Shown: piece after piece, positions 1,138-40,734 of the stretch
How positions within the stretch are numbered: position 1 is the stretch's first letter
Layout of the letters: every line of letters begins with the position of its first letter
Assembly: GCA_944323155.1 (NCBI GenBank)
Contig: CALURL010000015.1
Span: forward strand, 1 to 40,734
Direction of reading: 5' to 3'
DNA from: Candidatus Gastranaerophilales bacterium
GTDB lineage: Bacteria > Cyanobacteriota > Vampirovibrionia > Gastranaerophilales > Gastranaerophilaceae
Length of the DNA: 40,734 nt
Notes under the pieces: model-generated
The model's input: only the letters and a program-made list of their open reading frames with translations
What the model was told of the DNA's origin: nothing
Database searches by the model: none
Position numbers and translations under genes: made by a program

Positions 1138-2847
1138 TTATGCGCTGTAGCGTTTAAAACCTTTTTCAATATTTTTGGATATTAAATTCTTTACAGTATC
1201 ATATTCAGTTGTTAGAGTGCTAATTTCGGTATCAAGATTTTTCATTTTCAAATCTAGTTTTTGTTCTTTCATGTTTAGTTTTTCTTTTTTAGCTTTGTAA
1301 TCAGCTTCGGCTTTAGCAATTTCTGACTCGTCAGAAACCTCTTTTACATAAGAATATGTCTGGTAATTTCTCTGGTAATAAAAACCGTCGTCGCTCATGT
1401 TGGTTATATACATCATGCCGTTTTCAATCATATCCTGTAAATATTTTGGGTCATGAACTTCGTTATTCTCTGCCCAGCCGGAAGTTGCTATCTGGTTTAA
1501 CAAAGAATCATAGAATTCTATCATTCTACTTGCATATTCATTACCTTCGGTTATTGTTTCACCAGGGAAATCAAAGATTACATTATCACCGATTAATTCT
1601 GATGTACTAAAGCCTCGTTTTAAAGTATATGATTCATTTTTTGTATCATCAGTGGAATAACCATTATATGCATCTAAAAAGTAGGTCAAAAATGCACGTG
1701 CAATATTATTCAAATTTACACCGCAGGCACTATTAAATTTTTTACCAATTTTACCACCTTTAGTGTACCTGTTATACGCAATACCAACAATGTCACCGGC
1801 TTTATCTAAAATATTATTTTTTACTTCACCAACAGAAGGTTTCTTCTTAACAAAACCAGTCGCTGTTGCGACAGTATCAATACCGTTACCAAAACCTTCG
1901 TCGTGATGTACACGACTTGGTTCAACATCACTTACACTAAAATGGAATAATTCCATCGTTCTATATCTAGCCTCATTTAATGCCAATGTAGACTTTGGAT
2001 ACCCATTAGTAAGAACTGTTGCAAAAGCATCATATAACTGATCTATAAATCCGCCTGTTGCCGTTAAATCTGTTGCCAAACCCAAGACCCACTGAATTGG
2101 CCACTGATTATTATCATTAGTAATTGCTACAAAATTAATTTGATCATTTGGATCATTAGATAGAAGTTCGCTCAACTTTATATCTTCAAAAGTTGCAGAA
2201 CCTCCTTGTATATCAATATCTGAAGCTGTTGTTGTTTGTAAATTTCCTGAACTATCTTTACCAGTTACTACTGTAATATCCCCGCCTAAATTCATTCCTA
2301 TAGAAACAGCTGCAAGTCTATCTCTCAATTCTTCCATATCACCTTGTTCTACTGTTATTATATTCTCCGGAGAGGAATCTCCTAAACCTAAGGTATTATA
2401 ATATGGAGAATCTGCATAGGAACTTGCTTCGGACGCAGTGATAAGACCGGCATTAGCCAGACCTTGATAAAATTGAGTACGTACCAAACTTGATGAGGTA
2501 CATCCCAAACCTTCCTGTGGAATTCCGGCTTCTCGAGCGGCACTTGCGTAGCGGCTATCCAAAATGACACGGTTTAAGCTATTGGTCATGGTGATTGGAC
2601 GAAAATCGTTTAATGCAGATGGGGTCATAAAAGTATTATAATTTAACTGTTCCATGCCGCTGCCTGTGCCATAATAATCGTACATTAATTTTGTCTGGTT
2701 CAAACTTGCTTGATACTGGTTAGACAAAATGGCTAAGTCACGGGATATTGACAACTTTTCATGAGAAAGCTGCATTGACTGAAATTCACAATCGGACTTG
2801 CGTGATGTGATGGTTAATAAGCGTGCCTGTGATGCGGATAAGCCCAT
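1138..2847 (-). CDS. Family-A protein 1: conserved-termini protein, unknown, flagellin-like architecture
   Basis: 569 residues with no signal peptide or membrane segment. It is a close paralogue of the protein at 23849-25555 over its whole length. Shared blocks include the N-terminus MGLxAxQARLLTITxRKSDCE, then LNQTKLMYD, FIDQLY, GKxxNSACGVNLNNIARAFLTYFLDAY and SLLNQIATSGWAENN-like stretches. The last 65 residues form a heptad-rich coil ending with LDLKMKNLDTE and FKRYSA. The 369-aa protein at 29886 shares only the first 20 and last 35 or so residues. Helical ends around a variable centre are typical of flagellins and other axial or secreted filament proteins, but I see no direct flagellin similarity. 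The start is supported by AAAGGGG about 11 nt upstream. It lies downstream of the lytic transglycosylase on the same strand but has its own sigma-28-like promoter and a pentanucleotide repeat upstream. Function unknown. Confidence 0.85.
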   Translation of the reverse strand: MGLSASQARLLTITSRKSDCEFQSMQLSHEKLSISRDLAILSNQYQASLNQTKLMYDYYGTGSGMEQLNYNTFMTPSALNDFRPITMTNSLNRVILDSRYASAAREAGIPQEGLGCTSSSLVRTQFYQGLANAGLITASEASSYADSPYYNTLGLGDSSPENIITVEQGDMEELRDRLAAVSIGMNLGGDITVVTGKDSSGNLQTTTASDIDIQGGSATFEDIKLSELLSNDPNDQINFVAITNDNNQWPIQWVLGLATDLTATGGFIDQLYDAFATVLTNGYPKSTLALNEARYRTMELFHFSVSDVEPSRVHHDEGFGNGIDTVATATGFVKKKPSVGEVKNNILDKAGDIVGIAYNRYTKGGKIGKKFNSACGVNLNNIARAFLTYFLDAYNGYSTDDTKNESYTLKRGFSTSELIGDNVIFDFPGETITEGNEYASRMIEFYDSLLNQIATSGWAENNEVHDPKYLQDMIENGMMYITNMSDDGFYYQRNYQTYSYVKEVSDESEIAKAEADYKAKKEKLNMKEQKLDLKMKNLDTEISTLTTEYDTVKNLISKNIEKGFKRYSA

Positions 2848-2885: not shown

Positions 2886-2913
2886 TTGTCGACACTTATC
2901 CTCAAAATCTTTA
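2886..2913 (-). promoter_or_regulatory. Sigma-28/sigma-D-like promoter of family-A gene 1
   Basis: On the minus strand TAAAGATT (2913-2906), a 12-nt spacer and GTCGACAA (2893-2886) resemble the FliA consensus TAAAGTTT-N11-GCCGATAA. The second box ends 39 nt before the ATG. It is the weakest of three similar promoters in this window, but the three lie in front of the three related genes. Confidence 0.5.
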
Positions 2914-2924
2914 CACTGCGCCTG

Positions 2925-2954
2925 CCTATCCTATCCTATCCTATCCTATCCTAT
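2925..2954. repeat. Pentanucleotide tandem repeat (CCTAT)6
   Basis: Six perfect copies of CCTAT (ATAGG on the transcribed strand). The array ends 11 bp upstream of the -35-like box of the family-A gene 1 promoter. A housekeeping-type TATAAT on the minus strand (2965-2960) lies just beyond the other end. Repeats of this kind change copy number by slippage, so the spacing of upstream elements would change in 5-bp steps. Confidence 0.9.
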
Positions 2955-3033
2955 GAGGCATTATATCTGGATTTTAGCCATTTTGAAATTCTAGTTTACA
3001 TTTCGTTACATGTGATATAATTTATCACTTTTA

Positions 3034-7366: not shown

Positions 7367-8752
7367 TTAAAATATTTTATAAGGATTCAAAATATTATTC
7401 GGGTCAAAAGTTTTCTTAATTTGGCGCATATAATCTATCGCAACAGAATTAATAACTTTGTTAATATGATCACGCTTCATAAGCCCGATACCGTGTTCAC
7501 CGGAAAGAATTCCTCCAAGACGCGCTGTCAAATCATAGATTTCACTTTTTGCGAGTTTATAATTTTTATATTCAGCTTCATCGTTATAATCAATAGGGAT
7601 TTGCGGATGAACACTGCCGTCTCCGACATGGCCGACAAGGCATGGAGTTAGATTATATTTTTTACAAATATTTCTAATACCTTCGACAAGTTCTGCAAGA
7701 TTTTCACGCGGAACTATTACATCGTCTGTTGTTACATTAGGCTTTAGTTTCGCACAAGCACCCATGGATGAACGTCTGGCTGTCCAAATTTTATTGTATT
7801 CATCATCGTTATGAGAACTTTGAATTGCTGAGGCATTTGACATTTGTAAAATCTCTAATATAACCTTTTCCTGATAATCCATTGAAACTTTAAAACCGTC
7901 AACTTCTATCAGTAATGCAGCGTCTTTATCAGTTAAAAGCCCTGCAGGATAAAATTTTTCAACAGTTTGAATAGCATTCTTATCCATAAAATCAATCGTT
8001 GCTGGGAAAATTTTTCTGTCAATTATCGAATTAACAGCATTTACAGCTTCTTTTACAGTATCAAAATATGCCATAAAAACTTTTTTAGCTTCAGGTTTCG
8101 GGATAAGTTTTAATGTAGCTTCAACAACAATTCCCAAAGTACCTTCAGAGCCGACAAACAGACTGCCAAGGTTATAACCTGTTGCATTTTTAATCGTATT
8201 AGCGCCTGTTCTTAAAAGTTCACCGTTTGCCATAACAACAAGCATATCAATTACATAATCTTTGGTAGAACCATACTTAAATGTTTTAGCACCGCCTGAT
8301 GATTGAGCAATACTTCCGCCGATTGTAGAAACCGCAAGGTTAGATGGATCTGGCGGGTAAAACAATCCTATTTCATCAACTTGTTTTTGCAAATCTCCGA
8401 CAATCACACCGGGTTGAACACGGGCTGTCATATTTACGGAATTAATTTCAAGAATTTTGTTCATTCTCGAAAAATTCAAAATTATTCCGCCATGCTCTAC
8501 AACACATGCCCCGACAACATTAGTTCCTGCTCCGCGGCAAATAACAGGAATTTTATACCGGTTTGCAAGTTTCACAACATTTTGAACCTGTTCAATGCTA
8601 TCAACAAATACAACTGCATCCGGCAAATTTTTTATCTGCGGAATATTTGTTGCATCCTGCGCATATACGTAACACTCTTCTAATGTCGTTAAAACATTTT
8701 CTGCGGGGAGTGTCTTTTTCAAGTCTGATATTAATTTATTCTTCATCAACAT
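7367..8752 (-). CDS. glcD: GlcD-like FAD-binding 2-hydroxyacid (D-lactate/glycolate) dehydrogenase
   Basis: 461 residues, standard length. The N-terminal FAD-binding PCMH domain has CRGAGTNVVGA, PPDPSNL, GGSIAQSSGG and SEGTLGIV. The C-terminal FAD-linked oxidase domain ends with HVGDGSVHPQ, SGEHGIGLMKR and FDPNNILNP, all typical of GlcD/LldD2-type enzymes oxidising D-lactate or glycolate to the 2-oxoacid. No GlcE or GlcF partner is present, so the electron acceptor is not evident; an electron-transfer flavoprotein pairing is possible in anaerobes. The ATG at 8752 overlaps the end of the giant coiled-coil gene by 17 nt. A second in-frame ATG at 8746 is equally possible. The overlap implies translational coupling, an odd pairing of a metabolic enzyme with a structural protein. 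Confidence 0.9.
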   Translation of the reverse strand: MLMKNKLISDLKKTLPAENVLTTLEECYVYAQDATNIPQIKNLPDAVVFVDSIEQVQNVVKLANRYKIPVICRGAGTNVVGACVVEHGGIILNFSRMNKILEINSVNMTARVQPGVIVGDLQKQVDEIGLFYPPDPSNLAVSTIGGSIAQSSGGAKTFKYGSTKDYVIDMLVVMANGELLRTGANTIKNATGYNLGSLFVGSEGTLGIVVEATLKLIPKPEAKKVFMAYFDTVKEAVNAVNSIIDRKIFPATIDFMDKNAIQTVEKFYPAGLLTDKDAALLIEVDGFKVSMDYQEKVILEILQMSNASAIQSSHNDDEYNKIWTARRSSMGACAKLKPNVTTDDVIVPRENLAELVEGIRNICKKYNLTPCLVGHVGDGSVHPQIPIDYNDEAEYKNYKLAKSEIYDLTARLGGILSGEHGIGLMKRDHINKVINSVAIDYMRQIKKTFDPNNILNPYKIF

Positions 8753-11700
8753 ATGATGCCAGCTTTTCTATATTTGCACTTAGTTTGGATAACTGTTTTT
8801 CAATTTTATCCACTTTATTATTTAACACCATATCATCTTTTTCTTCAAGTGTCGATAGAATTTTTTCTATTTTTCTTTCTAACCTATCAATTCTTGATTC
8901 TTGATTTTCAAATCTTTCCTCAAGTTCTTCTAAAATTTCAGACTTGTCCGGAACAGAAACCTTTAATTCCTGAATCATATTTTTAACATCTTTTACTTCT
9001 GATGTTTTTTCAGCAATAGAAGCCATATTTTCACTTGCGGAGTCAACCCATTCGCCAAGATACATTAGAACCTGATGGAAAACCTTATCTGCATTTACAG
9101 AAGAAGCAACCATTGATTTTATGGCATCTATTTTCTTTTCAAAGCGTTCATTTATCTCAGCATAGTCAATATAACTTATTTTCTCTTCGAGATTTGATAC
9201 AACATTACTGAATTTATCAAGTCCGCTGCTCAGGGCTTTGTAAGATTCATCTGAGGTGAGAAGCAGTTTATTTGTTCTTGAGCTTATGCTTATAATATCA
9301 TCATTAAGTTTTTCAATATCTTCTTTCAAATCAAACATTTGATCAGGAGTTAAAGAAGATTGAATATTCTCTACTGATAACGCAATTTTATTAATATTTC
9401 TTGAAAGATCATTTATATCATCTTTTGATGTTGAATTTGAAATATCATTCAAAGCTATACGAAGTTTTGCAATATCAGATTCAACATCCTGGAGAGTATA
9501 TGAATAACCGAAATCATCACTATTTGCGATTTGTTTGAGCTGGTCACGAACTTCTTGAAGATGCTGGCTTATTTCGTCTGTTTTTTCTTCTACAAAATCT
9601 TTAATTTCTTCAGTTTCTTCGACAAAAGACACCTGTTCAAATACAGAAATTATTGCAGCCATAATAGATTCTTTTATGTCCTGCGTATTTTTGTCTAAAT
9701 CAACATCATTTAATCCATTCTCAATATTCTGAATTTTACCAAGTAAGTCTTCTAAACATGAACTTATTGCCTCTGTTCGCTCGTTTAATTCTGAATTTTC
9801 AAAATACTTACGCTGCTCTAAAATAAGGCTTTTAATATCTTCAATTTCTGTTTCAGCATCAAAATCTTCAGAATCATTAAATAAAGCTAATGTATCTACC
9901 TTTTGATGCAATGCCATCAAGGTTTCTGCTATCCTGTCTTCTGTATCATCGGCAGCAACAAGCGTATCCACTTTCTGATGCAGGCCTAACAAGGATTCTG
10001 CGATTTTATCCTCAGTGTCATCAGGTTCGATAAGTGTATCTACTTTTTGGTGAAGCCCGATTAATGATTCTGCAATTTTGTCCTCAGTTAACACTACATC
10101 ATCGATTTTGTCATTCAAATCAATAATTGATGTATCAGAAGCCATTACATCTATTTTATTGTTTAAAGTTTCAAAAGCCTCAGCATAATCATTATCATTA
10201 TTTTCGTCAATAGATGTTACAAGAAGATCCATCTTTTGATGAAGTGCCTTCAATGAGTCATTAGAATCTTTTATTAAATCAGAATCTAATGCAATATTAG
10301 TATTTATATCTACTACAGTTTCAAGAACTTTTTTAGTTTCATCCTGAATATATTCTTTTAAAGTATTCTGTACAGCAGCCAAACCTTCTTTAAAATTTTC
10401 ATGGCTGCTGTCATCATTCGCAATTTCAACCAACAAGTTGTTAAACTTTTCTGATAAATCGCGTTTTAATATATCTACTGCCTGTTGAAGCTCTTCACTA
10501 TTAACAGACTCAGAAAGACAAGATTTTAAATCATCGATATAACCAGTTAATTTTTCATCAATAGTATTACTTATGTCATTCTGCAACAAAGATAATGAAT
10601 CTGAATAAGAGGTATTTATTGCAACAAGCTTATCCTTAATCTGGTTAATACCTTCCTGCCACTGTTCTATAAAGCTGTTTGTTTTTTCAATATTTAGACT
10701 TACATTTTTGTTTACATTTTCAACAGCAAGCCCTAACAATTCAAGATTTTCCTGAGTCTGTTCCTTTAGACAATCTTCGATGTCTGATAATTTAATTAAG
10801 GTTTCTTTATAAACCTGTTCCAATTTAGCAATCGCTTCTTGATTATCAACAAAACCATTTGTCAAATCAGAACTTATATTCATATAAGAAAAGTCAAGCT
10901 GTTCTTTTATATTAGTAATAGTGTCGCAAAAGTCCAATGAGGCAAATTTTTCTATCTCTGCCTGCAAAGGGATAAAACGATTAATTAAATCTTCTGCACG
11001 GTTATTAAAGATATCAATAATATCTGTATTAACAAGATTTAACTCTTGCTTTAAAAGATTAATTTTTTCTTCGAAATTGTTTAGAATTTCTTGCTTTGAA
11101 TTGTCACTATCAGTTTTTAAAACATCTGCCAGGGATAGAAGGTTTTCAAATTTTTCATCAACCGATGCCAAATAATCTTTTAAGTTGTCATCAACACTTG
11201 AATTATTTTTAACAGAGGAACTCAATTCAGAAATTGTATCAGAAACAGATTTTATTCCTGCTTCAAGTAACGACATCATTTGCACAAGTCTGCCATCGCT
11301 GGTGTCAAAATTAGATTTTAATGTATCAGCCAAAGATGTCAATTCAAGTTTTACTGCAGAAATTTCGGCAATAGAATTATCGATTTTTACATCTGTGTCA
11401 GAAGATATAGTTTCGACAGATTTTATATACTCGCCTAATTTTGTCTGCAAAATATCTAATTTTTCATCATAGTCGCTTAAACTGCTAGAGAACGAATTTT
11501 CCAGGTTTAACAATTTTTCAGAAAATGCCTTTTCATTATAATCTTCGTTTGATTTTGCAGAAATAGTCAATTCTTCAACATAATGTCTTAAATCTTCCAT
11601 TAGATTTTCAATATGTTGTTTCTGACTGTCTGCCATTTTCGAAAAAGCTGATTCAATATCTTTTAAATCAGTAGAAATCATTTCAAGTTTTTCAGCTTGA

Positions 11701-14186
11701 TATTGGTTAGATTGTCGATAAAAATCAGAATTTTTTGTCTGAACATCATTCAATTCATTTGAAAGATTTGCAAACATATCTTTCAAATCAGAAAAACTAT
11801 TTGCAACTTCAAGTGCAAGATTATCTTGTATATTATCTATTTTTAAAGAAGCTGTTTCTAATGTATCAGAAAGTTTTGTAACATTTGCCTCTTCTGTCTG
11901 CAGAAATTCTGTTCTTAAATCTGAAATCTGTTTTGTTACGTCTTTAATTTCGGATATAACAGAATCTGAATCAATAGTAGAAATATTTTTTAGACTTAAC
12001 TCAAAATTTTCAAACTTTGCAGATAATTCTGCAATAGAGTCTTCCAAACAATTTGAATCATCATCAGATTTGTCATCAAAACCGTTAATGAGGTTTATTG
12101 TTTTTTCATAAATTTCTTGGAAAGCATCTGAAATCTTTAATAAATTGGCATTACTATTTTGAATAAGTTCAGCCTTAACATCATCAAAAGTTGATATTAC
12201 ATTGTCAATATCGTTTTTAATATCAAATAACGCATTTTTATTTTTTACATCAAGACCGTCAAAACGTTCATTAAAACGTTCTGATAACATCATCAACTCA
12301 TTTGAAAGATTTTCATAATTCATTTTAGAATTATTTTCAAAACTATTCTTTATGTCATCTATACTCAAGGATATATTTTTAAGGTCATCTGAATAATTAA
12401 TCGAATCTAATTTTTCTAAAATCTCTCCAATTCTTAATTTATTAGCATCGGAGTTTAAATTAAGCACAGAAGAATTATCAAGAATTTTTTCAATGAATTC
12501 AGAGAAGCTGCTCTTGAATTCAGAAAAATCTTCTTTAGTAATAATATTAGAGAAATCCTTTTCAAATTTATTCAATTGTTCTAACAAATGTGAATCATTA
12601 TTTCCAGAGACGCTCTGAAGAATTTCCTGTAATTCTTTGATGTTTGCAGCAAAATCATCAAATTTATTTGTCAACTGAACGAAATCATCTTTTACAGGCA
12701 GCTGAGAAATATTAACAGCAATTTCCTGAGCTCTTGCGTTAATTTCTTCAAATTTTGCCTGAATATTTTCTAAATCTTCTTTATTTGCCAGATTTGTAAT
12801 AATATCTGCAATCTCGTCATTTTTTTGATCAGAAATTTTTAATGCTGATAAAACCGCATTTGCGCTAATATAGATATTTTCAAGCTCTCGTTTTATAATA
12901 TCGTTCTGCTCAGTAACATCCATTGTCATAAGGTTTTTCAAAATATTCTGAAGATTGACATTAACATCAATCAAAGATGCTTCAAACCCATGATTTAAGT
13001 CATACAGAAGATTTAGTTTTTCTTCCAATTTGGTGCTGTTTTGAGAGTTTGAATCATATAAAGAATCACCAACTTCTGTTACAAAAGCCTTGATTGCAGC
13101 GACTTTATCTTCTATAACAGCTTTATATTCTATATTTACAGAATTTAATGTTTCATGCAGTTTTACAATATTGTCATTAACATTCTTTAATTCAGCATAA
13201 TTATGTTCGCTGTTGCTGCTAACAAGAGATGAAAGTTCATCTTTTTTATTCGCAAGTTCTACGGAAATATTAGTTATTAAATCTTCGATATTGTTTAAAT
13301 TTTCTTTAGTTTCATTGGCTGCGTTTTCAACGGCTTCATTAATATCGAAAGAAACAACATCTAATTTTTCAGATATAGCATCAGCCGCAGAAAGCAGCTT
13401 AGGAGTATTTTCAGTATTTTTAAGCAAATCATCAAGCTTTGATGAAACACTTTCAAAATCTCCGTTATAATCAATAGCTTTTATTTCTGAGAGAATATTT
13501 TCTAATTGAGTAGAATTATTTGAGATTTCAGAATTCAAAAATGAAGCATTATCAGTAATTGTTTGGATTAAATCAGCAAGCCCTTTTCTAAAGTCTGCAA
13601 AATCTGTTTCAGTAACAACAGAAGATAATTCATTTTGGAGTTTTTCAAATTGTTCTGCGCTAAATGCATTGGTTTCTTCTGAAACTCCCATGACTGCAAA
13701 CTTTAATTCATCAAGCAATGCAGAATATTTTTCTACTTTTTCAGACAAAACATCTAATCCGTTAATAATATTATTTTGTCCTTCTTTATCATTTTGAATA
13801 GCTTCAAGTTTTTCATTAACTTCTTTAATCAAATCAGCATTCAAAGATATTTCCAGAGAAAAAGAATTAACCTGATCGTTTAAAACTTGAAATAATTCCT
13901 GAATTTGAGATGTTTTAGCATTCTGTTCCTGCAACTTTGAAACATTTTCAATAGATGTTTCAATGCCATCAAACAATGAAACTGTTTGTTTATGTTTATC
14001 TTCAACAGCTCTTTTGAGTTCAGAAACATAAATTTTGATAGAATCATAGGCTTCAGTATCTTCCGCCATCATATCTAATTTATTATTAATAATAGTTAAT
14101 GCCTTATCAAACCCCTCTGCATTATTCTCATTTTCAAGCTTCAAATTGTTCAAAATTTCAGCGAGTTCTTCAACTGTTTGCGCCAT
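8736..14186 (-). CDS. Giant (1816-aa) cytoplasmic coiled-coil protein, unknown function
   Basis: 1816 residues, strongly acidic, rich in Leu, Asn, Asp, Glu, Lys and Ser, almost free of Cys, Trp, Pro and Gly. No signal peptide or membrane segment is seen. Nearly the whole chain repeats heptad patterns of the type 'I..KLD.L.......' and reads as a succession of coiled-coil segments. A 24-residue unit (TEDKIAESLxGLHQKVDTL plus a linker) occurs three times in tandem at DNA 9873-10088. The C-terminus (SRIDRLERKIEKILSTLEEK) is a canonical coil. AAGGAAAG lies about 10 nt before the ATG. It is the first gene of an operon with glcD and an HExxH protein and is divergent from korD. Length and composition suggest a filament, scaffold or spacing protein. 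I do not recognise a named family; SMC-like is unlikely because there is no ATPase head. Confidence 0.85.
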   Translation of the reverse strand: MAQTVEELAEILNNLKLENENNAEGFDKALTIINNKLDMMAEDTEAYDSIKIYVSELKRAVEDKHKQTVSLFDGIETSIENVSKLQEQNAKTSQIQELFQVLNDQVNSFSLEISLNADLIKEVNEKLEAIQNDKEGQNNIINGLDVLSEKVEKYSALLDELKFAVMGVSEETNAFSAEQFEKLQNELSSVVTETDFADFRKGLADLIQTITDNASFLNSEISNNSTQLENILSEIKAIDYNGDFESVSSKLDDLLKNTENTPKLLSAADAISEKLDVVSFDINEAVENAANETKENLNNIEDLITNISVELANKKDELSSLVSSNSEHNYAELKNVNDNIVKLHETLNSVNIEYKAVIEDKVAAIKAFVTEVGDSLYDSNSQNSTKLEEKLNLLYDLNHGFEASLIDVNVNLQNILKNLMTMDVTEQNDIIKRELENIYISANAVLSALKISDQKNDEIADIITNLANKEDLENIQAKFEEINARAQEIAVNISQLPVKDDFVQLTNKFDDFAANIKELQEILQSVSGNNDSHLLEQLNKFEKDFSNIITKEDFSEFKSSFSEFIEKILDNSSVLNLNSDANKLRIGEILEKLDSINYSDDLKNISLSIDDIKNSFENNSKMNYENLSNELMMLSERFNERFDGLDVKNKNALFDIKNDIDNVISTFDDVKAELIQNSNANLLKISDAFQEIYEKTINLINGFDDKSDDDSNCLEDSIAELSAKFENFELSLKNISTIDSDSVISEIKDVTKQISDLRTEFLQTEEANVTKLSDTLETASLKIDNIQDNLALEVANSFSDLKDMFANLSNELNDVQTKNSDFYRQSNQYQAEKLEMISTDLKDIESAFSKMADSQKQHIENLMEDLRHYVEELTISAKSNEDYNEKAFSEKLLNLENSFSSSLSDYDEKLDILQTKLGEYIKSVETISSDTDVKIDNSIAEISAVKLELTSLADTLKSNFDTSDGRLVQMMSLLEAGIKSVSDTISELSSSVKNNSSVDDNLKDYLASVDEKFENLLSLADVLKTDSDNSKQEILNNFEEKINLLKQELNLVNTDIIDIFNNRAEDLINRFIPLQAEIEKFASLDFCDTITNIKEQLDFSYMNISSDLTNGFVDNQEAIAKLEQVYKETLIKLSDIEDCLKEQTQENLELLGLAVENVNKNVSLNIEKTNSFIEQWQEGINQIKDKLVAINTSYSDSLSLLQNDISNTIDEKLTGYIDDLKSCLSESVNSEELQQAVDILKRDLSEKFNNLLVEIANDDSSHENFKEGLAAVQNTLKEYIQDETKKVLETVVDINTNIALDSDLIKDSNDSLKALHQKMDLLVTSIDENNDNDYAEAFETLNNKIDVMASDTSIIDLNDKIDDVVLTEDKIAESLIGLHQKVDTLIEPDDTEDKIAESLLGLHQKVDTLVAADDTEDRIAETLMALHQKVDTLALFNDSEDFDAETEIEDIKSLILEQRKYFENSELNERTEAISSCLEDLLGKIQNIENGLNDVDLDKNTQDIKESIMAAIISVFEQVSFVEETEEIKDFVEEKTDEISQHLQEVRDQLKQIANSDDFGYSYTLQDVESDIAKLRIALNDISNSTSKDDINDLSRNINKIALSVENIQSSLTPDQMFDLKEDIEKLNDDIISISSRTNKLLLTSDESYKALSSGLDKFSNVVSNLEEKISYIDYAEINERFEKKIDAIKSMVASSVNADKVFHQVLMYLGEWVDSASENMASIAEKTSEVKDVKNMIQELKVSVPDKSEILEELEERFENQESRIDRLERKIEKILSTLEEKDDMVLNNKVDKIEKQLSKLSANIEKLASYVDEE
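9873..10088 (-). repeat. Three tandem 72-bp coding repeats in the coiled-coil gene
   Basis: On the minus strand three consecutive 24-codon units begin at 10088, 10016 and 9944. They encode TEDKIAESLIGLHQKVDTLI, TEDKIAESLLGLHQKVDTLV and TEDRIAETLMALHQKVDTLA, each followed by about four linker residues. Synonymous and conservative changes show the duplication is not brand new. A looser related unit (LKALHQKMDLL) lies just upstream in the protein. Confidence 0.9.
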
Positions 14187-17852: not shown

Positions 17853-18581
17853 TCACCAGTTTTTTTGAATTTCTTCATCCGTCATATGCAAATAATCCAT
17901 GTTATGATGTTTCAAAATCCAATACCCGCATGTAGAACCAGGAATCCAAAAGGCTGATGTTTGACAAAGCTGTTTTGCATTGTTGCCATCACCGCTGTTG
18001 CTTGACCACGATGGGCCTGGAAGAATTTTATTATTTTGTCCGCTATTAAACGATAAAAACTGAAAATCTTCACCTATTTTATTAGGGCCTTTATTACCAT
18101 TCAAATCAACCATAAAATCGACCACATGTCCATCCCTGTAAAACAAAATTGTCTCACCAGAAATCAGTCTTACAGCAGGCTGTTTATCTCGTGCTGCATT
18201 CTGCGCAAAATTAAAATTTCCATCCTTTTCATTATTAAGAAAAACATAATCAGAATCAGTATAAATACATTTTTCATTACTTTTACCAGGAGGACAGTCA
18301 GCACTTAAAACCAAATAAGGTTTTAATTTGTTATATGTATCATTGTCATTTTGCTCCCACATGTCAAATGTTCCATACTCGGGTATAGCACGATTATAAG
18401 CCTGATTTAAAATACTATATACCCGCAAATACGCGGTAACAAGTTGTTTTTCTCTAAACTTTTGAATAACAGAAGGTAAAGTTAATGCTGCAACAATTCC
18501 GATTACCCCAAGAGTGATAAGAACTTCTGCTAATGTAAATGCCAATTTCTTATTAAATTTATCGAAATAGTGATGTACCAT
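17853..18581 (-). CDS. Type IV prepilin-like / pseudopilin protein
   Basis: 242 residues from the ATG at 18581. The N-terminus has a basic leader and the prepilin signature AFTLAEVLITLGVIGIVAAL, where a prepilin peptidase would cleave before Phe and methylate it. Here Ala takes the usual Gly -1 position. The body has few hydrophobic segments. It carries DLNGNKGPNKIGEDF, a loop shared with the two other prepilins here (33538 and 40036), and Cys residues near the C-terminus that could pair. The ATG has no Shine-Dalgarno. TTGCAA-N16-TATAAT ends 6 nt before it, implying a leaderless mRNA. Alternatively translation starts in the short upstream ORF at 18679, which would be in frame if its G10 run were 8 or 11. 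No pilus assembly genes are present. Confidence 0.88.
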   Translation of the reverse strand: MVHHYFDKFNKKLAFTLAEVLITLGVIGIVAALTLPSVIQKFREKQLVTAYLRVYSILNQAYNRAIPEYGTFDMWEQNDNDTYNKLKPYLVLSADCPPGKSNEKCIYTDSDYVFLNNEKDGNFNFAQNAARDKQPAVRLISGETILFYRDGHVVDFMVDLNGNKGPNKIGEDFQFLSFNSGQNNKILPGPSWSSNSGDGNNAKQLCQTSAFWIPGSTCGYWILKHHNMDYLHMTDEEIQKNW

Positions 18582-23541: not shown

Positions 23542-23848
23542 GGTAATGTGCCTTTCTCAACTATTTTGTATATCTATACAAAATAAAATATACGGCGATT
23601 AAATGTCTCTATGTTTTAACCTTTCTATTAACATTATACCACTTTTAACAATAATTTCCTATTTCACGATTATTACATAAGTAGCATTTTTACAATACTT
23701 AATAGGGGCTTGATTACACTTGATTTTAATTTGTTAAATAATGTAACAAAAAATTTCAAAAACACTAAAGTTTTTTCTTAAAAAACCGATATTTTACATG
23801 AACGACTCTAAGAAGTTACTAAGAAATTGAAAGGAAAGTCGATAAACA
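23542..23848. other. Divergent intergenic region with family-A promoter
   Basis: 307 bp between the starts of the Ycf45-like gene (leftward) and family-A gene 2 (rightward). It holds the sigma-D-like promoter at 23766-23792, a TGTAACA element at 23742-23748 and an imperfect dyad TTGTTA-N7-TAACAA (23731-23749). The leader carries AAGTTACTAA (23813-23822), also found in the leader of the gene at 29886. I saw no small ORF. Confidence 0.6.
23766..23792 (+). promoter_or_regulatory. Sigma-28/sigma-D-like promoter of family-A gene 2
   Basis: TAAAGTTT (23766-23773), 11-nt spacer, ACCGATAT (23785-23792). The first box is a perfect match to the enterobacterial FliA -35. CCGATAT is the exact sigma-D -10 of Bacillus, with TAAA 16 nt upstream. 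The TGTAACA element begins 45 bp before CGATAT, the same distance as in front of the gene at 29886. Confidence 0.7.
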
Positions 23849-25555
23849 ATGGGATTAGCAGCACAACAAGCTAGATTATTGACAATTACAGCCAGAAAAT
23901 CTGACTGTGAATATCAATCTATGAAGCTTTCTCACCAAAAGCTTGCTATTTCCCGTGAATTGGAAGACGTTTCTAATGAATACCAAAACTCTTTAAACCA
24001 GACTAAATTAATGTACGATTTTTATGGTAATGGTCAGGGAGAACAGTTGAATTATGCAACCTTAATGACACCTTCTGCTTTGAATGATTATATGCCGATT
24101 ACAATAACAAATTCAGCCGGCAGAGTAATATTAAACAGTCAATACGCAGCTGCAGCACGTGCTGCAGGTATTCCTATGGAAGGATTAGGATGTGCACCTT
24201 CAACACTTGTAAGACAACAATTCTATAATGGTTTGGCTTCAGCAGGCTTGATAACTCAATCAGATGCAGATTATTATGCTTCTACTGTTTATAATCAGGC
24301 TCTTGGTCTTGGTGCAACAACTTCTGAAGGCATTATCACAGTTGAATCAGGTGATATGACTGACTTAAAAGCAAAATTAACAGGCGTAACATTAAGTATG
24401 AATCAAGAAATGACTGTTGTTACAGGCCAAAATGCTGACGGAACTTATCAGACAACAACCAGCACATATACTGATATAACAAATTCTACAATGGATAGTA
24501 TATCATTGAGCCAGTTGTTATCTACCGATCCGAATGATCAGGTTAACTATGTAGCAGTAACAAATGATGACAACAATTATCCGACTAAATGGGTATTAGG
24601 TTTAGCACTGGATATGACATCCACAGGCGGCTTTATTGACCAGTTATATAATGCATTTGCATCAGTTTTAACAACCGGTTATGAAAAATCAACTATTGCA
24701 TTAAATTATGCAAAACAAAAGACAACTGAGCTTTTCGAATTCAGTTACGGCGGAGACCATGGAAACGGTCAGACTTCTGTTAAAAATGGAGGAGATCAAG
24801 AAAATCCTGACGGTATAGATAACATAGCAACAAACACCGGATATAGACCTAAAAAAGGTAAAGAAGGTGAAATGAAACAGAATATACTTGACAATACAGG
24901 TAATATTGTTGGTATTTCATTCAACTCTTACTGGAAAGGCGGCAAAAAAGGTAAAGATTATAACAGTGCCTGCGGTGTAAACTTAAACAATATTGCAAGA
25001 GCATTTTTAACATATTTCCTTGACGCATATGAAGATGGTCTTGATACAGACGATAATAAAAATGACTCAAGCGAGCTCAAAAGAGGTTATACAACATCCG
25101 AACTTATAACAGACGATGTTACATTCGACTTTGCAGGAGAAACAATTACCTCAGAAACTGCAGGAAGACACATTCAATTCTATGATACATTGTTAAATCA
25201 AATAGCAACTTCCGGCTGGGCTGAAAATAACCAGGTAACAGATCCTGCTTATCTTCAACAAATGCTGCAAAACGGTATGATGTATATTACCAAAATAAAA
25301 GATGATGGATATTATTATCAGGGTAATTACGCAACAGACTCTTATGTTAAAGAAGTTACTGATGAAACAGCAATTGCTCAGGCAGAAGCAAAATATAACA
25401 CCCTAAAAACGAAATTAAACAGTAAAGAAAATACTCTAGATTTGAAAATGAAAAACCTTGATACTGAAATTTCATCACTAACGACAGAATATGATACAAT
25501 AAAGAATACAATATCGAAAAACATAGAAAGGTCATTCAAACGATACAGCGCATAA
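23849..25555 (+). CDS. Family-A protein 2: conserved-termini protein, unknown, flagellin-like architecture
   Basis: 568 residues, no signal peptide or membrane segment. It is the full-length paralogue of the protein at 1138-2847, differing mainly in a hydrophilic insert around residues 310-330 (GGDHGNGQTSVKNGGDQEN). The N-terminal helix is MGLAAQQARLLTITARKSDC. Conserved middle segments include MTPSALNDYMPITITNS, STGGFIDQLYNAFASVLTTG and NSACGVNLNNIARAF. The C-terminal coil is LDLKMKNLDTEISSLTTEYD and the end SFKRYSA. AAAGGAAAG lies 13 nt before the ATG. The protein is rich in Asn, Thr, Asp, Gly and Tyr, as extracellular proteins often are, despite lacking a Sec signal. That suggests export by a non-Sec route, or an intracellular role if not exported. 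It has its own promoter and terminator, so it is monocistronic. No database family is known to me. Confidence 0.85.
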   Translation: MGLAAQQARLLTITARKSDCEYQSMKLSHQKLAISRELEDVSNEYQNSLNQTKLMYDFYGNGQGEQLNYATLMTPSALNDYMPITITNSAGRVILNSQYAAAARAAGIPMEGLGCAPSTLVRQQFYNGLASAGLITQSDADYYASTVYNQALGLGATTSEGIITVESGDMTDLKAKLTGVTLSMNQEMTVVTGQNADGTYQTTTSTYTDITNSTMDSISLSQLLSTDPNDQVNYVAVTNDDNNYPTKWVLGLALDMTSTGGFIDQLYNAFASVLTTGYEKSTIALNYAKQKTTELFEFSYGGDHGNGQTSVKNGGDQENPDGIDNIATNTGYRPKKGKEGEMKQNILDNTGNIVGISFNSYWKGGKKGKDYNSACGVNLNNIARAFLTYFLDAYEDGLDTDDNKNDSSELKRGYTTSELITDDVTFDFAGETITSETAGRHIQFYDTLLNQIATSGWAENNQVTDPAYLQQMLQNGMMYITKIKDDGYYYQGNYATDSYVKEVTDETAIAQAEAKYNTLKTKLNSKENTLDLKMKNLDTEISSLTTEYDTIKNTISKNIERSFKRYSA

Positions 25556-29800: not shown

Positions 29801-29814
29801 ATTTAAAACATGTT

Positions 29815-29842
29815 TAAAGTTTTAAAGTCCATGTGTCGATAT
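29815..29842 (+). promoter_or_regulatory. Sigma-28/sigma-D-like promoter of family-A gene 3
   Basis: TAAAGTTT (29815-29822), 12-nt spacer, GTCGATAT (29835-29842). The first box is a perfect FliA -35 match; CGATAT matches the -10 core. The second box ends 43 nt before the ATG. The leader shares AAGTTACTAA with family-A gene 2. Confidence 0.65.
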
Positions 29843-29885
29843 ACAACATGTAAGTTACTAAAGTAAGAAAGGATGATCGACAGCA

Positions 29886-30995
29886 ATGGGAATGGCAGCG
29901 TCACAAGCTAGATTTTTAGGTCTGACAGCCAGAAAAACCAATGTTGAGTTCGAAGGTCAACAAGTTAACCAGCAGCGAACCACATTGTCCAACCAGTCTG
30001 CAAATTATTACAACGATTTGCTCGGTATGACTGTACCAACTCCTCCGTCTGTCGACAATTATACAAAAACCGTTTATACATTTGAGGACGGCGCTTTATC
30101 TAACACAATAACAAGTCTAATTGCCTCTCCAAACGGTGAATATACTGTAAGTTATTTAAGAAAATGGACTGATGATTTTTCAGTAGTCGCAGCCTCAACA
30201 AGTATTGTTACAGAAAATGGCGACGGTACATATAATGTTGGCGCAAACAAATTACGCGACTTAGGTGTTGCTATTCCGGATAATGCAGATAACTTTGAAC
30301 ACGATGCTACCGGAAACAGAACAAAATACATCGGTGAATATGAATATCTTCAATCAATGACACCTGAACAAATCGACAGTTTAATTAAAGAAGAACAACA
30401 ATATCTTGCTCTATTAAACGAAAAATACGGAACAACAAATAGTGATTGGCTGGTAAGATATGTTGAAGATACTACTACAGGTAAACAAGTTCCATACTTC
30501 TACAAGAAAGATGATGTAACCGGTGCAGTTTACGATGACAATGGAAATTCTAAATCTAATATCAAATGTTACACCGTTGGCAGCACTACACAAACTGAAG
30601 AAGTTAAAGCTGTTACTAACTGTAAAGTTGAAAAAGACAGTTCAGGCCGCTTTATCAATATAACTCTTCCTGAACTTGATGACGATGGTAATCCTGTTCT
30701 TGATGATAAAGGCAACATTGTTTACGGCCCGACTTATTCTTTGACAACAAGCACAGTTACTGATCAAGATGCATACAATGATGCAATGAATCAATATGAA
30801 TATGAAAAATATGAATATGATCAAGCTATCAATGAAATAAATGCAAAAATAGAAATTATACAAGCACAAGATAAAAACCTTGAATTAAGATTGAAACAAC
30901 TCGATACAGAACAAGATGCAATTCAAACAGAAATGGATGCCGTACAAAAAGTTATCGAAAAGAACACAGAATCTTCATTCAAAACATTCGGATAA
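29886..30995 (+). CDS. Family-A protein 3: short form, unknown, flagellin-like architecture
   Basis: 369 residues, no signal peptide. The N-terminus MGMAASQARFLGLTARKTNV and the C-terminal coil (LRLKQLDTEQDAIQTEMDAV, ending SFKTFG) align with both ends of the 568/569-aa proteins. The central 280 residues are unrelated to theirs. The middle is rich in Asp, Asn, Thr, Tyr and Gly with short repeats such as LDDDGNPVLDDKGNIVYGP, resembling surface or calcium-loop segments. A Tyr/Glu-rich helix (YEYEKYEYDQAINEINAK) leads into the C-terminal coil. AGAAAGGA lies about 13 nt before the ATG. It has its own promoter and terminator. Conserved ends with a swapped centre argue that the ends do a common job, such as assembly or export. 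Exact function unknown. Confidence 0.85.
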   Translation: MGMAASQARFLGLTARKTNVEFEGQQVNQQRTTLSNQSANYYNDLLGMTVPTPPSVDNYTKTVYTFEDGALSNTITSLIASPNGEYTVSYLRKWTDDFSVVAASTSIVTENGDGTYNVGANKLRDLGVAIPDNADNFEHDATGNRTKYIGEYEYLQSMTPEQIDSLIKEEQQYLALLNEKYGTTNSDWLVRYVEDTTTGKQVPYFYKKDDVTGAVYDDNGNSKSNIKCYTVGSTTQTEEVKAVTNCKVEKDSSGRFINITLPELDDDGNPVLDDKGNIVYGPTYSLTTSTVTDQDAYNDAMNQYEYEKYEYDQAINEINAKIEIIQAQDKNLELRLKQLDTEQDAIQTEMDAVQKVIEKNTESSFKTFG

Positions 30996-40035: not shown

Positions 40036-40734
40036 TTACCAAGGATAATCGTCTTTTATCTGCCAGCCGTCATACTGTATAAGAGCACCACACCACTCGC
40101 CTGATTGGTTATTACCAATTTTTTCTTTACACCCTCTATTACCATCCAGCAAATCCTCTCTTGTTTGCCCTATTCCATACATATTAATATTTGTTGTTGA
40201 AGGGTTTAATATTATATGGAATATATCTCTACCATACAGATTTGGTTTTTGCTTGCCGTTTAAATCTATTCTCATAAAAATAGTTGTTCCATATACAGTT
40301 TGTCCAGCATCATCAGACCATCCATCCAATGAAAGTGTTATAACTATACCATTGTTAATTATAAAACTATAACTATGTGCATTAGAACCATTACGTTGAA
40401 CTCCATTACGCCAATAAAATATATAATCGCATTTTTCTCTTTCCTGACTTGATGATCCTGCAGGGCATTCTTCGACCGATTTTATATAAGGAATTAAATA
40501 TTTATGAGCAAAATTATTCAAAGAAACATCAACTTGATCCAGAGAAGTTAGCCCAGATGCAATATCCCAGCCGGATATATCACCGTGATCTTTCTGAGCC
40601 ATAACAAGTGCCTGAGAAATTGTAGAATAAGCTTGTTTTAACCTGTTCACCGTGACTTTTTTCTGATAATTTAAAATTACAGAAGGTAAGGTCATTGCAG
40701 CAACAACACCTATTATACCGAGGGTAATTAAGAC
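40036..40734 (-). CDS. Type IV prepilin-like protein, N-terminus cut by window edge
   Basis: The frame is open on the minus strand from 40734 to the stop at 40036, 232 residues visible. The first residues, VLITLGIIGVVAAMTLPSVI, are the hydrophobic prepilin helix, so only the leader and the first few mature residues lie outside. It shares DLNGKQKPNLYGRDIF with the gene at 17853 and the C-terminus CGALIQYDGWQIKDDYPW with the pseudogene at 33538. Several Cys pairs are present. It would be anchored in the inner membrane and assembled by a type IV pilus or type II-like system, none of which is in the window. The apparent internal start at 40695 is not the true one. Confidence 0.88.
   Translation of the reverse strand, partial: VLITLGIIGVVAAMTLPSVILNYQKKVTVNRLKQAYSTISQALVMAQKDHGDISGWDIASGLTSLDQVDVSLNNFAHKYLIPYIKSVEECPAGSSSQEREKCDYIFYWRNGVQRNGSNAHSYSFIINNGIVITLSLDGWSDDAGQTVYGTTIFMRIDLNGKQKPNLYGRDIFHIILNPSTTNINMYGIGQTREDLLDGNRGCKEKIGNNQSGEWCGALIQYDGWQIKDDYPW

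Follow-up and report, generated by a model that had tools for sequence, protein, structure and literature searches.

The gene at 1138 in the stretch analysed here (hereafter the window, a 40,734-nucleotide contig of a Candidatus Gastranaerophilales bacterium) is preceded by a perfect pentanucleotide array, which raises the question of whether this repeat is a switch belonging to one gene copy or a part of a promoter. A first-pass annotation, made from the window alone, had favoured the former possibility, proposing that changes in copy number would displace upstream elements and that this single member of a paralogue family may be turned on and off. The features of the locus, together with the promoters of two paralogues, are collected in Table 1.

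Table 1. Features at the array-bearing promoter region and comparison promoters in the window.
Feature	Position	Strand	Basis or remark
Pentanucleotide array, (CCTAT)6, i.e. (ATAGG)6 on the coding strand	2925..2954	-	Predicted initial transcribed sequence of P1
P1 -10 hexamer, TATAAT	2960..2965	-	Conserved in 35 aligned sites
Conserved P1 stretch between RpaB-type box and -10, TTTTAAAATGGCTGAAACCC type, weak -35	2966..2994	-	Alignment
RpaB/HLR1-type box, ATGTAACGAAATGTAAAC on the coding strand	2994..3012	-	Motif match, about -58 to -42
P2, FliA/sigma28-like: TAAAGATT (2913-2906), 12-nt spacer, GTCGACAA (2893-2886)	2886..2913	-	11 nt past the array; assignment inferred
Downstream gene, 569 aa, paralogue family	1138..2847	-	Conserved N and C ends, variable middle
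Paralogue promoter, FliA-like TAAAGTTT-N11-ACCGATAT, no array	23766..23795 (approximate)	+	Comparison
Paralogue promoter, FliA-like TAAAGTTT-N12-GTCGATAT, no array	29814..29843 (approximate)	+	Comparison

The array scored 60 with 100% matches in a tandem-repeat check, and none of the dinucleotide shuffles of the window reached the observed match count, which bears out the six perfect units read by the first-pass annotation. It is the sole perfect tandem array of period 4–8 with at least three units in the window, and a scan of 113 kb of this genome for such arrays returned only the eight copies of the cassette described below. The surroundings had also been described correctly: the array is followed, after a gap of 11 bp, by a -35-like box (TAAAGATT) and is flanked on its other side by a separate TATAAT, and both paralogues in the window (23849 and 29886) do lack the repeat. 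A third paralogue, encoded on another contig, carries it in 3 copies. Orthologues of the 1138 gene, both within its genus and in a neighbouring one, are devoid of it.

The ATAGG array is present at eight loci of this 1.79-Mb genome in a shared layout, in which ATGTAACGAAATGTAAA is followed by TTTTAAAATGGCTGAAA, TATAATGCCTC, (ATAGG)3-6 and a start codon situated 72–143 nt from the array start. A search model built from these eight loci identified a ninth with (ATATG)4 in place of ATAGG. A second model, consisting of the promoter core alone with the repeat positions excluded, was matched by 143 of the 286 genomes searched from the order (E ≤ 1e-6) and by 72 of 244 from the phylum (E ≤ 1e-5); among the matches listed, all genomes fall in the window's own family, probably Candidatus Gastranaerophilaceae, and a weaker match, whose array is degenerate, came from a second family of the order (G072). 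Some genomes contain more than 20 cassette sites. The genes behind the cassette are mostly non-homologous, since 111 downstream proteins from the relatives form 83 homology clusters, and the sequences that follow the array are common to several promoters of one genome, which argues for cassette copying. The repeat, previously viewed as a property of one switchable gene copy, belongs instead to the TATAAT promoter (P1), which stands before many genes; judged by its sequence context, it is a predicted start-site element of a promoter class found family-wide. The open-access literature that we searched does not describe pentamer arrays at bacterial start sites. Contigs that start or end inside the cassette were observed in several assemblies (G000, C11, positions 1-70; G045, C2, C30 and C35; G028, C34; G273, C14, C36 and C62), and with many assemblies broken in this way its copies are probably under-counted.

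P1 combines a good -10 with a weak -35, and its transcript is predicted to start about 7 nt downstream of the -10, at about 2953 and within the first ATAGG unit, the array itself beginning 5 nt past the TATAAT on the minus strand. The earlier view that the repeat shifts an upstream TATAAT is retained only in part: the array does set the distance between two promoters, but this TATAAT is the -10 of a conserved promoter with an RpaB-type box, whose own predicted transcript starts in the array. The box is the reverse complement of HLR1, the binding consensus of cyanobacterial RpaB (KTTACAWW-N2-KTTACAWW; PMC13421787), which is thus read here on the plus strand. The window box fits this consensus at 15 of 16 positions, and among 111 related sites, gathered by likeness to the whole cassette and independently of the published consensus, 78 match at 16 of 16, against a maximum of 14 in shuffled controls. 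Its position relative to the predicted start (Table 1) is near the range of -66 to -45 published for activating HLR1 sites (PMC13421787). Furthermore, the genome encodes an RpaB orthologue (NF045944, 362 bits against a cut-off of 330), and from the motif we infer that RpaB probably binds the P1 box; the two further OmpR-type regulators encoded in the genome speak against taking this for certain. RpaB is retained in Melainabacteria, where its role has been left open (PMC3787301). In the same genome, HLR1-like direct repeats without pentamer arrays also precede other unknown genes (loci L046, L047, L048, L053 and L055), and the RpaB regulon may therefore be wider.

The array keeps its period and its phase to P1 while its unit changes. 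Over the 20 nt following the -10, the identity at period 5 was 0.81 (116 sites), against 0.18–0.28 at other periods except 10. In a held-out set of 40 genomes unused in model building, each contributing one site, arrays were present in 38, with a period-5 identity of 0.85, and a TANNNT hexamer started 6–8 nt past the -10 in 39, figures that are to be read with the limit that the core model was trained on repeat-bearing promoters, albeit without the repeat positions. Eight unit types were encountered (ATAGG, ATAGA, ATAGC, ATATG, TATGG, TATGT, TATGC and TTAGG), which differ by species and locus and are more uniform within genomes than expected (0.70 versus 0.44 permuted, p about 0.0002); degenerate arrays retain period 5. 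TA is the sole feature common to all eight types and, because all units are connected by single changes, it could be left over from a single ancestral unit. C accounts for 2.6% of bases 6–25 after the -10. The window array can also be read as tandem TAGGAT, that is, as -10-like TANNNT hexamers, and across the relatives TANNNT occupies exactly positions +7 to +12 after the -10 hexamer at 80 of 102 sites, 77 of them TANNAT; the array hexamers agree with TATAAT at only 3–5 of 6 positions.

Directly downstream of most arrays lies a second promoter-like motif (P2), [T/G][A/C]AA..TTTT, often in the form TAAAGTTT-N11-GCCG. The window P2, TAAAGATT-N12-GTCGACAA, which contains the -35-like box of the first-pass annotation, compares with the sigma28/FliA pattern TAAAGTTT-N11-GCCGATAA, and the genome encodes a FliA-type sigma factor (TIGR02479, 243 bits against a cut-off of 189.6) and an FlhA-type export gate. 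An additional 491-aa ORF (L204, 1465-2940 of contig C4 of G000) matches FlhA/SctV over its C-terminal, cytoplasmic part only; the full-length FlhA is encoded apart from it, on C5. The strength of P2 varies, from strong at L138, L148 and L190 to weak at other relatives, and the motif is hard to discern at some loci, such as L031 and L037; since P1 and the array go together, the array is assigned to P1. The distance between the P1 -10 and P2 is quantised by 5 nt, with 70 of 80 cases in two residue classes and a mode of 40–41 nt.

The length of the array can change faster than the flanking DNA. Two sister species with 93.5% identity over 2.5 kb (G273 and G178) carry 5 and 10 units next to an identical flanking promoter. 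G022 contains almost identical paralogues whose arrays count 7, 5 and 3 units, and two duplicates in G016 have 4 and 6. Within the window's own genus, one orthologous promoter contains 16 TTAGG units versus 4 ATAGG units in the window's genome. At L073 (G001), sixteen perfect TTAGG units, the unit of the insect telomere repeat, coincide with the start site predicted for a gene encoding a small protein. The length variation anticipated by the first-pass annotation thus exists in sister species and duplicates, but not in four orthologous promoters of another genus, which have 4 units each although their DNA has diverged by 9–24%. Given this constancy and an overall copy-number mode of 4–5 in the held-out survey, many arrays look stable; the sequence comparisons suggest that arrays slip, yet their length seems to be held around a preferred value. 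Reversible on/off switching within a population, as phase variation by the array would entail, is possible.

The reading that we favour, with slightly less than even confidence, is that the array holds sigma back and makes RNA polymerase pause, its copy number tuning escape from P1 and interference between P1 and P2. In such a mechanism, the RpaB-type activator box would drive the sigma70-type P1, and from +1 onward the polymerase would encounter tandem TA-containing pentamers whose non-template strand is nearly free of C. With a period of 5, every unit would present one -10-like TANNNT hexamer, at +1 to +6, then at +6 to +11 and onward along the array. Sigma kept in the early elongation complex would re-engage these hexamers and cause repeated pauses during escape, and the number of units would set the duration and reach of pausing along with the distance to P2. 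Slippage, by altering this number fast, would then lead to a graded tuning of P1 output and of P1–P2 interference and not to a simple switch. At a sigma70-dependent pause element, sigma-dependent pausing takes place at +16/+17. The element of lambda PR' lies at +1 to +6, with a mutant form described that carries A+2G and T+6G (PMC4604602), and A+2 and T+6 are the two positions kept in the arrays studied here. E. coli pause sites belonging to this class depend on a -10-like region that lies about 11 bp downstream of the -10 (PMC7876045), and at P1 a -10-like hexamer is found about 11–12 bp downstream of the -10 (exactly so at 80 of 102 sites, and within one nucleotide at 39 of the 40 held-out ones). 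The agreement of the array position with both the lambda PR' element and the E. coli placement is what points to sigma holding and pausing. A broader proposal, that these promoters form a novel class in which an obligatory, length-variable +1 array acts as a ladder of -10-like elements and slippage tunes how sigma is retained, how the polymerase pauses and how far P1 interferes with an alternative-sigma promoter downstream, throughout the RpaB regulon of these non-photosynthetic relatives of cyanobacteria, can be advanced tentatively as a possibility.

The rapid change in array length and the 5-nt quantisation of the P1–P2 spacing would also suit a contingency locus, where slipped-strand mispairing switches or grades the gene through leader length or promoter spacing and sigma pausing is uninvolved; precedents are the (AGAT)n repeat in the 5' leader of UspA2 (PMC7302503; PMC4679880) and the T-tract rheostat of sabA (PMC4081817). 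We consider this explanation rather unlikely, as it leaves unexplained why the phase relative to the -10 is fixed, why TA is constant and C scarce despite unit turnover, and why the array is present at almost all copies of P1, and it has to accommodate a narrow copy-number mode and four diverged orthologues that stay at 4 units. Alternatively, the array, being the predicted 5' end of the mRNA, might act as RNA, with (AUAGG)n bound by a protein or an antisense RNA that controls stability or translation. This appears improbable: the uniformity of the unit within genomes would agree with it and an action of this type has been proposed for TAACTGA heptamer arrays (PMC4679880), but the unit is free to turn over except for TA, and no other place in the genome has three units as a candidate antisense. 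Among specific forms of RNA-level control, TRAP binding to the UAG repeats of a UAG/GAG leader was rejected, as the genome has no TRAP gene (PF02081 unmatched), and a leader hairpin or riboswitch-like fold was ruled out, as the leader folds worse than shuffles (z +1.1). Shine-Dalgarno-like, CsrA and two-tier G-quadruplex roles of AGGA/GG are not general, the ATATG, ATAGA and ATAGC units lacking AGGA/GG.

The post-array sequences indicative of cassette copying, and the homogeneity of units within genomes, might further suggest that the array is a passive microsatellite, that is, neutral slippage debris riding along with the copied cassette. We regard this as very improbable, because period and phase are retained in 38 of 40 held-out genomes despite unit change, degenerate arrays are still of period 5, and perfect arrays of period 4–8 are absent elsewhere in the 113 kb scanned. 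Compared with the contingency and RNA-level explanations, passive debris is the only one strongly at odds with the data.

Several known systems resemble parts of this promoter. Cyanobacterial RpaB/HLR1 promoters share with P1 the HLR1 consensus, an upstream box, here near the activating range, and an RpaB orthologue in the genome, whereas here the box is reversed and slightly nearer the start, the targets are unrelated to photosynthesis and a pentamer array follows at +1. The sigma70-dependent pause elements of lambda PR' and lac likewise place a -10-like hexamer at +1 to +6 downstream of a canonical -10; in contrast, the hexamers here form a tandem, length-variable series at which pausing is predicted, pausing of this kind in the transcribed region being documented for E. 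coli, a different lineage. The (AGAT)n of Moraxella catarrhalis uspA2 and the T-tract of Helicobacter pylori sabA are simple repeats of variable length near a promoter or in a 5' leader, with graded effects on expression in those systems, but the present array has period 5, is anchored to the start site and defines a class common to many unrelated genes and to a whole family. In Mycoplasma gallisepticum, the vlhA (GAA)n repeat is also common to many promoters per genome with conserved flanks; it is placed, however, about 40 nt ahead of the start, in one gene family only (PMC6258824). The TAACTGA heptamers of Beggiatoaceae similarly form many dispersed short intergenic arrays ahead of unrelated genes, although they abut start codons and keep a constant unit (PMC4679880), unlike the arrays described here, which abut the transcription start and change their unit.

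The 569-aa product of the gene at 1138 had no match in Pfam, NCBIfam or PDB. Its family, which includes the genes at 23849-25555 and 29886-30995, gives 9–17 matches per related genome, and all three window members have FliA-like promoters. Conserved ends with a variable middle are the layout of flagellin-type axial proteins, which would fit FliA-type control, and the family possibly comprises axial or exported filament proteins. Elsewhere in the window, prepilin-like N-terminal sequences of the FTLAEVLITLGVIGIVAALTLPSVI type were noted at 17853-18581 and 40036-40695, and an 1816-aa coiled-coil-like protein (8736-14186) contains an internal 72-bp tandem repeat at 9892-10088. Judged by eye, positions 1-50 look like the start of a minus-strand 16S rRNA gene (its 5' end); the contig end appears to fall inside an rRNA operon.

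In summary, these findings describe a promoter type with a microsatellite exactly at the predicted transcription start, preceding many unrelated genes in many species, and they provide concrete predicted target genes for RpaB in a cyanobacterial lineage that does not photosynthesise and in which the part played by this system had been left open (PMC3787301). The pausing reading can be tested directly on the units and copy numbers that occur naturally and, if that reading is true, slippage could tune early elongation in these bacteria.
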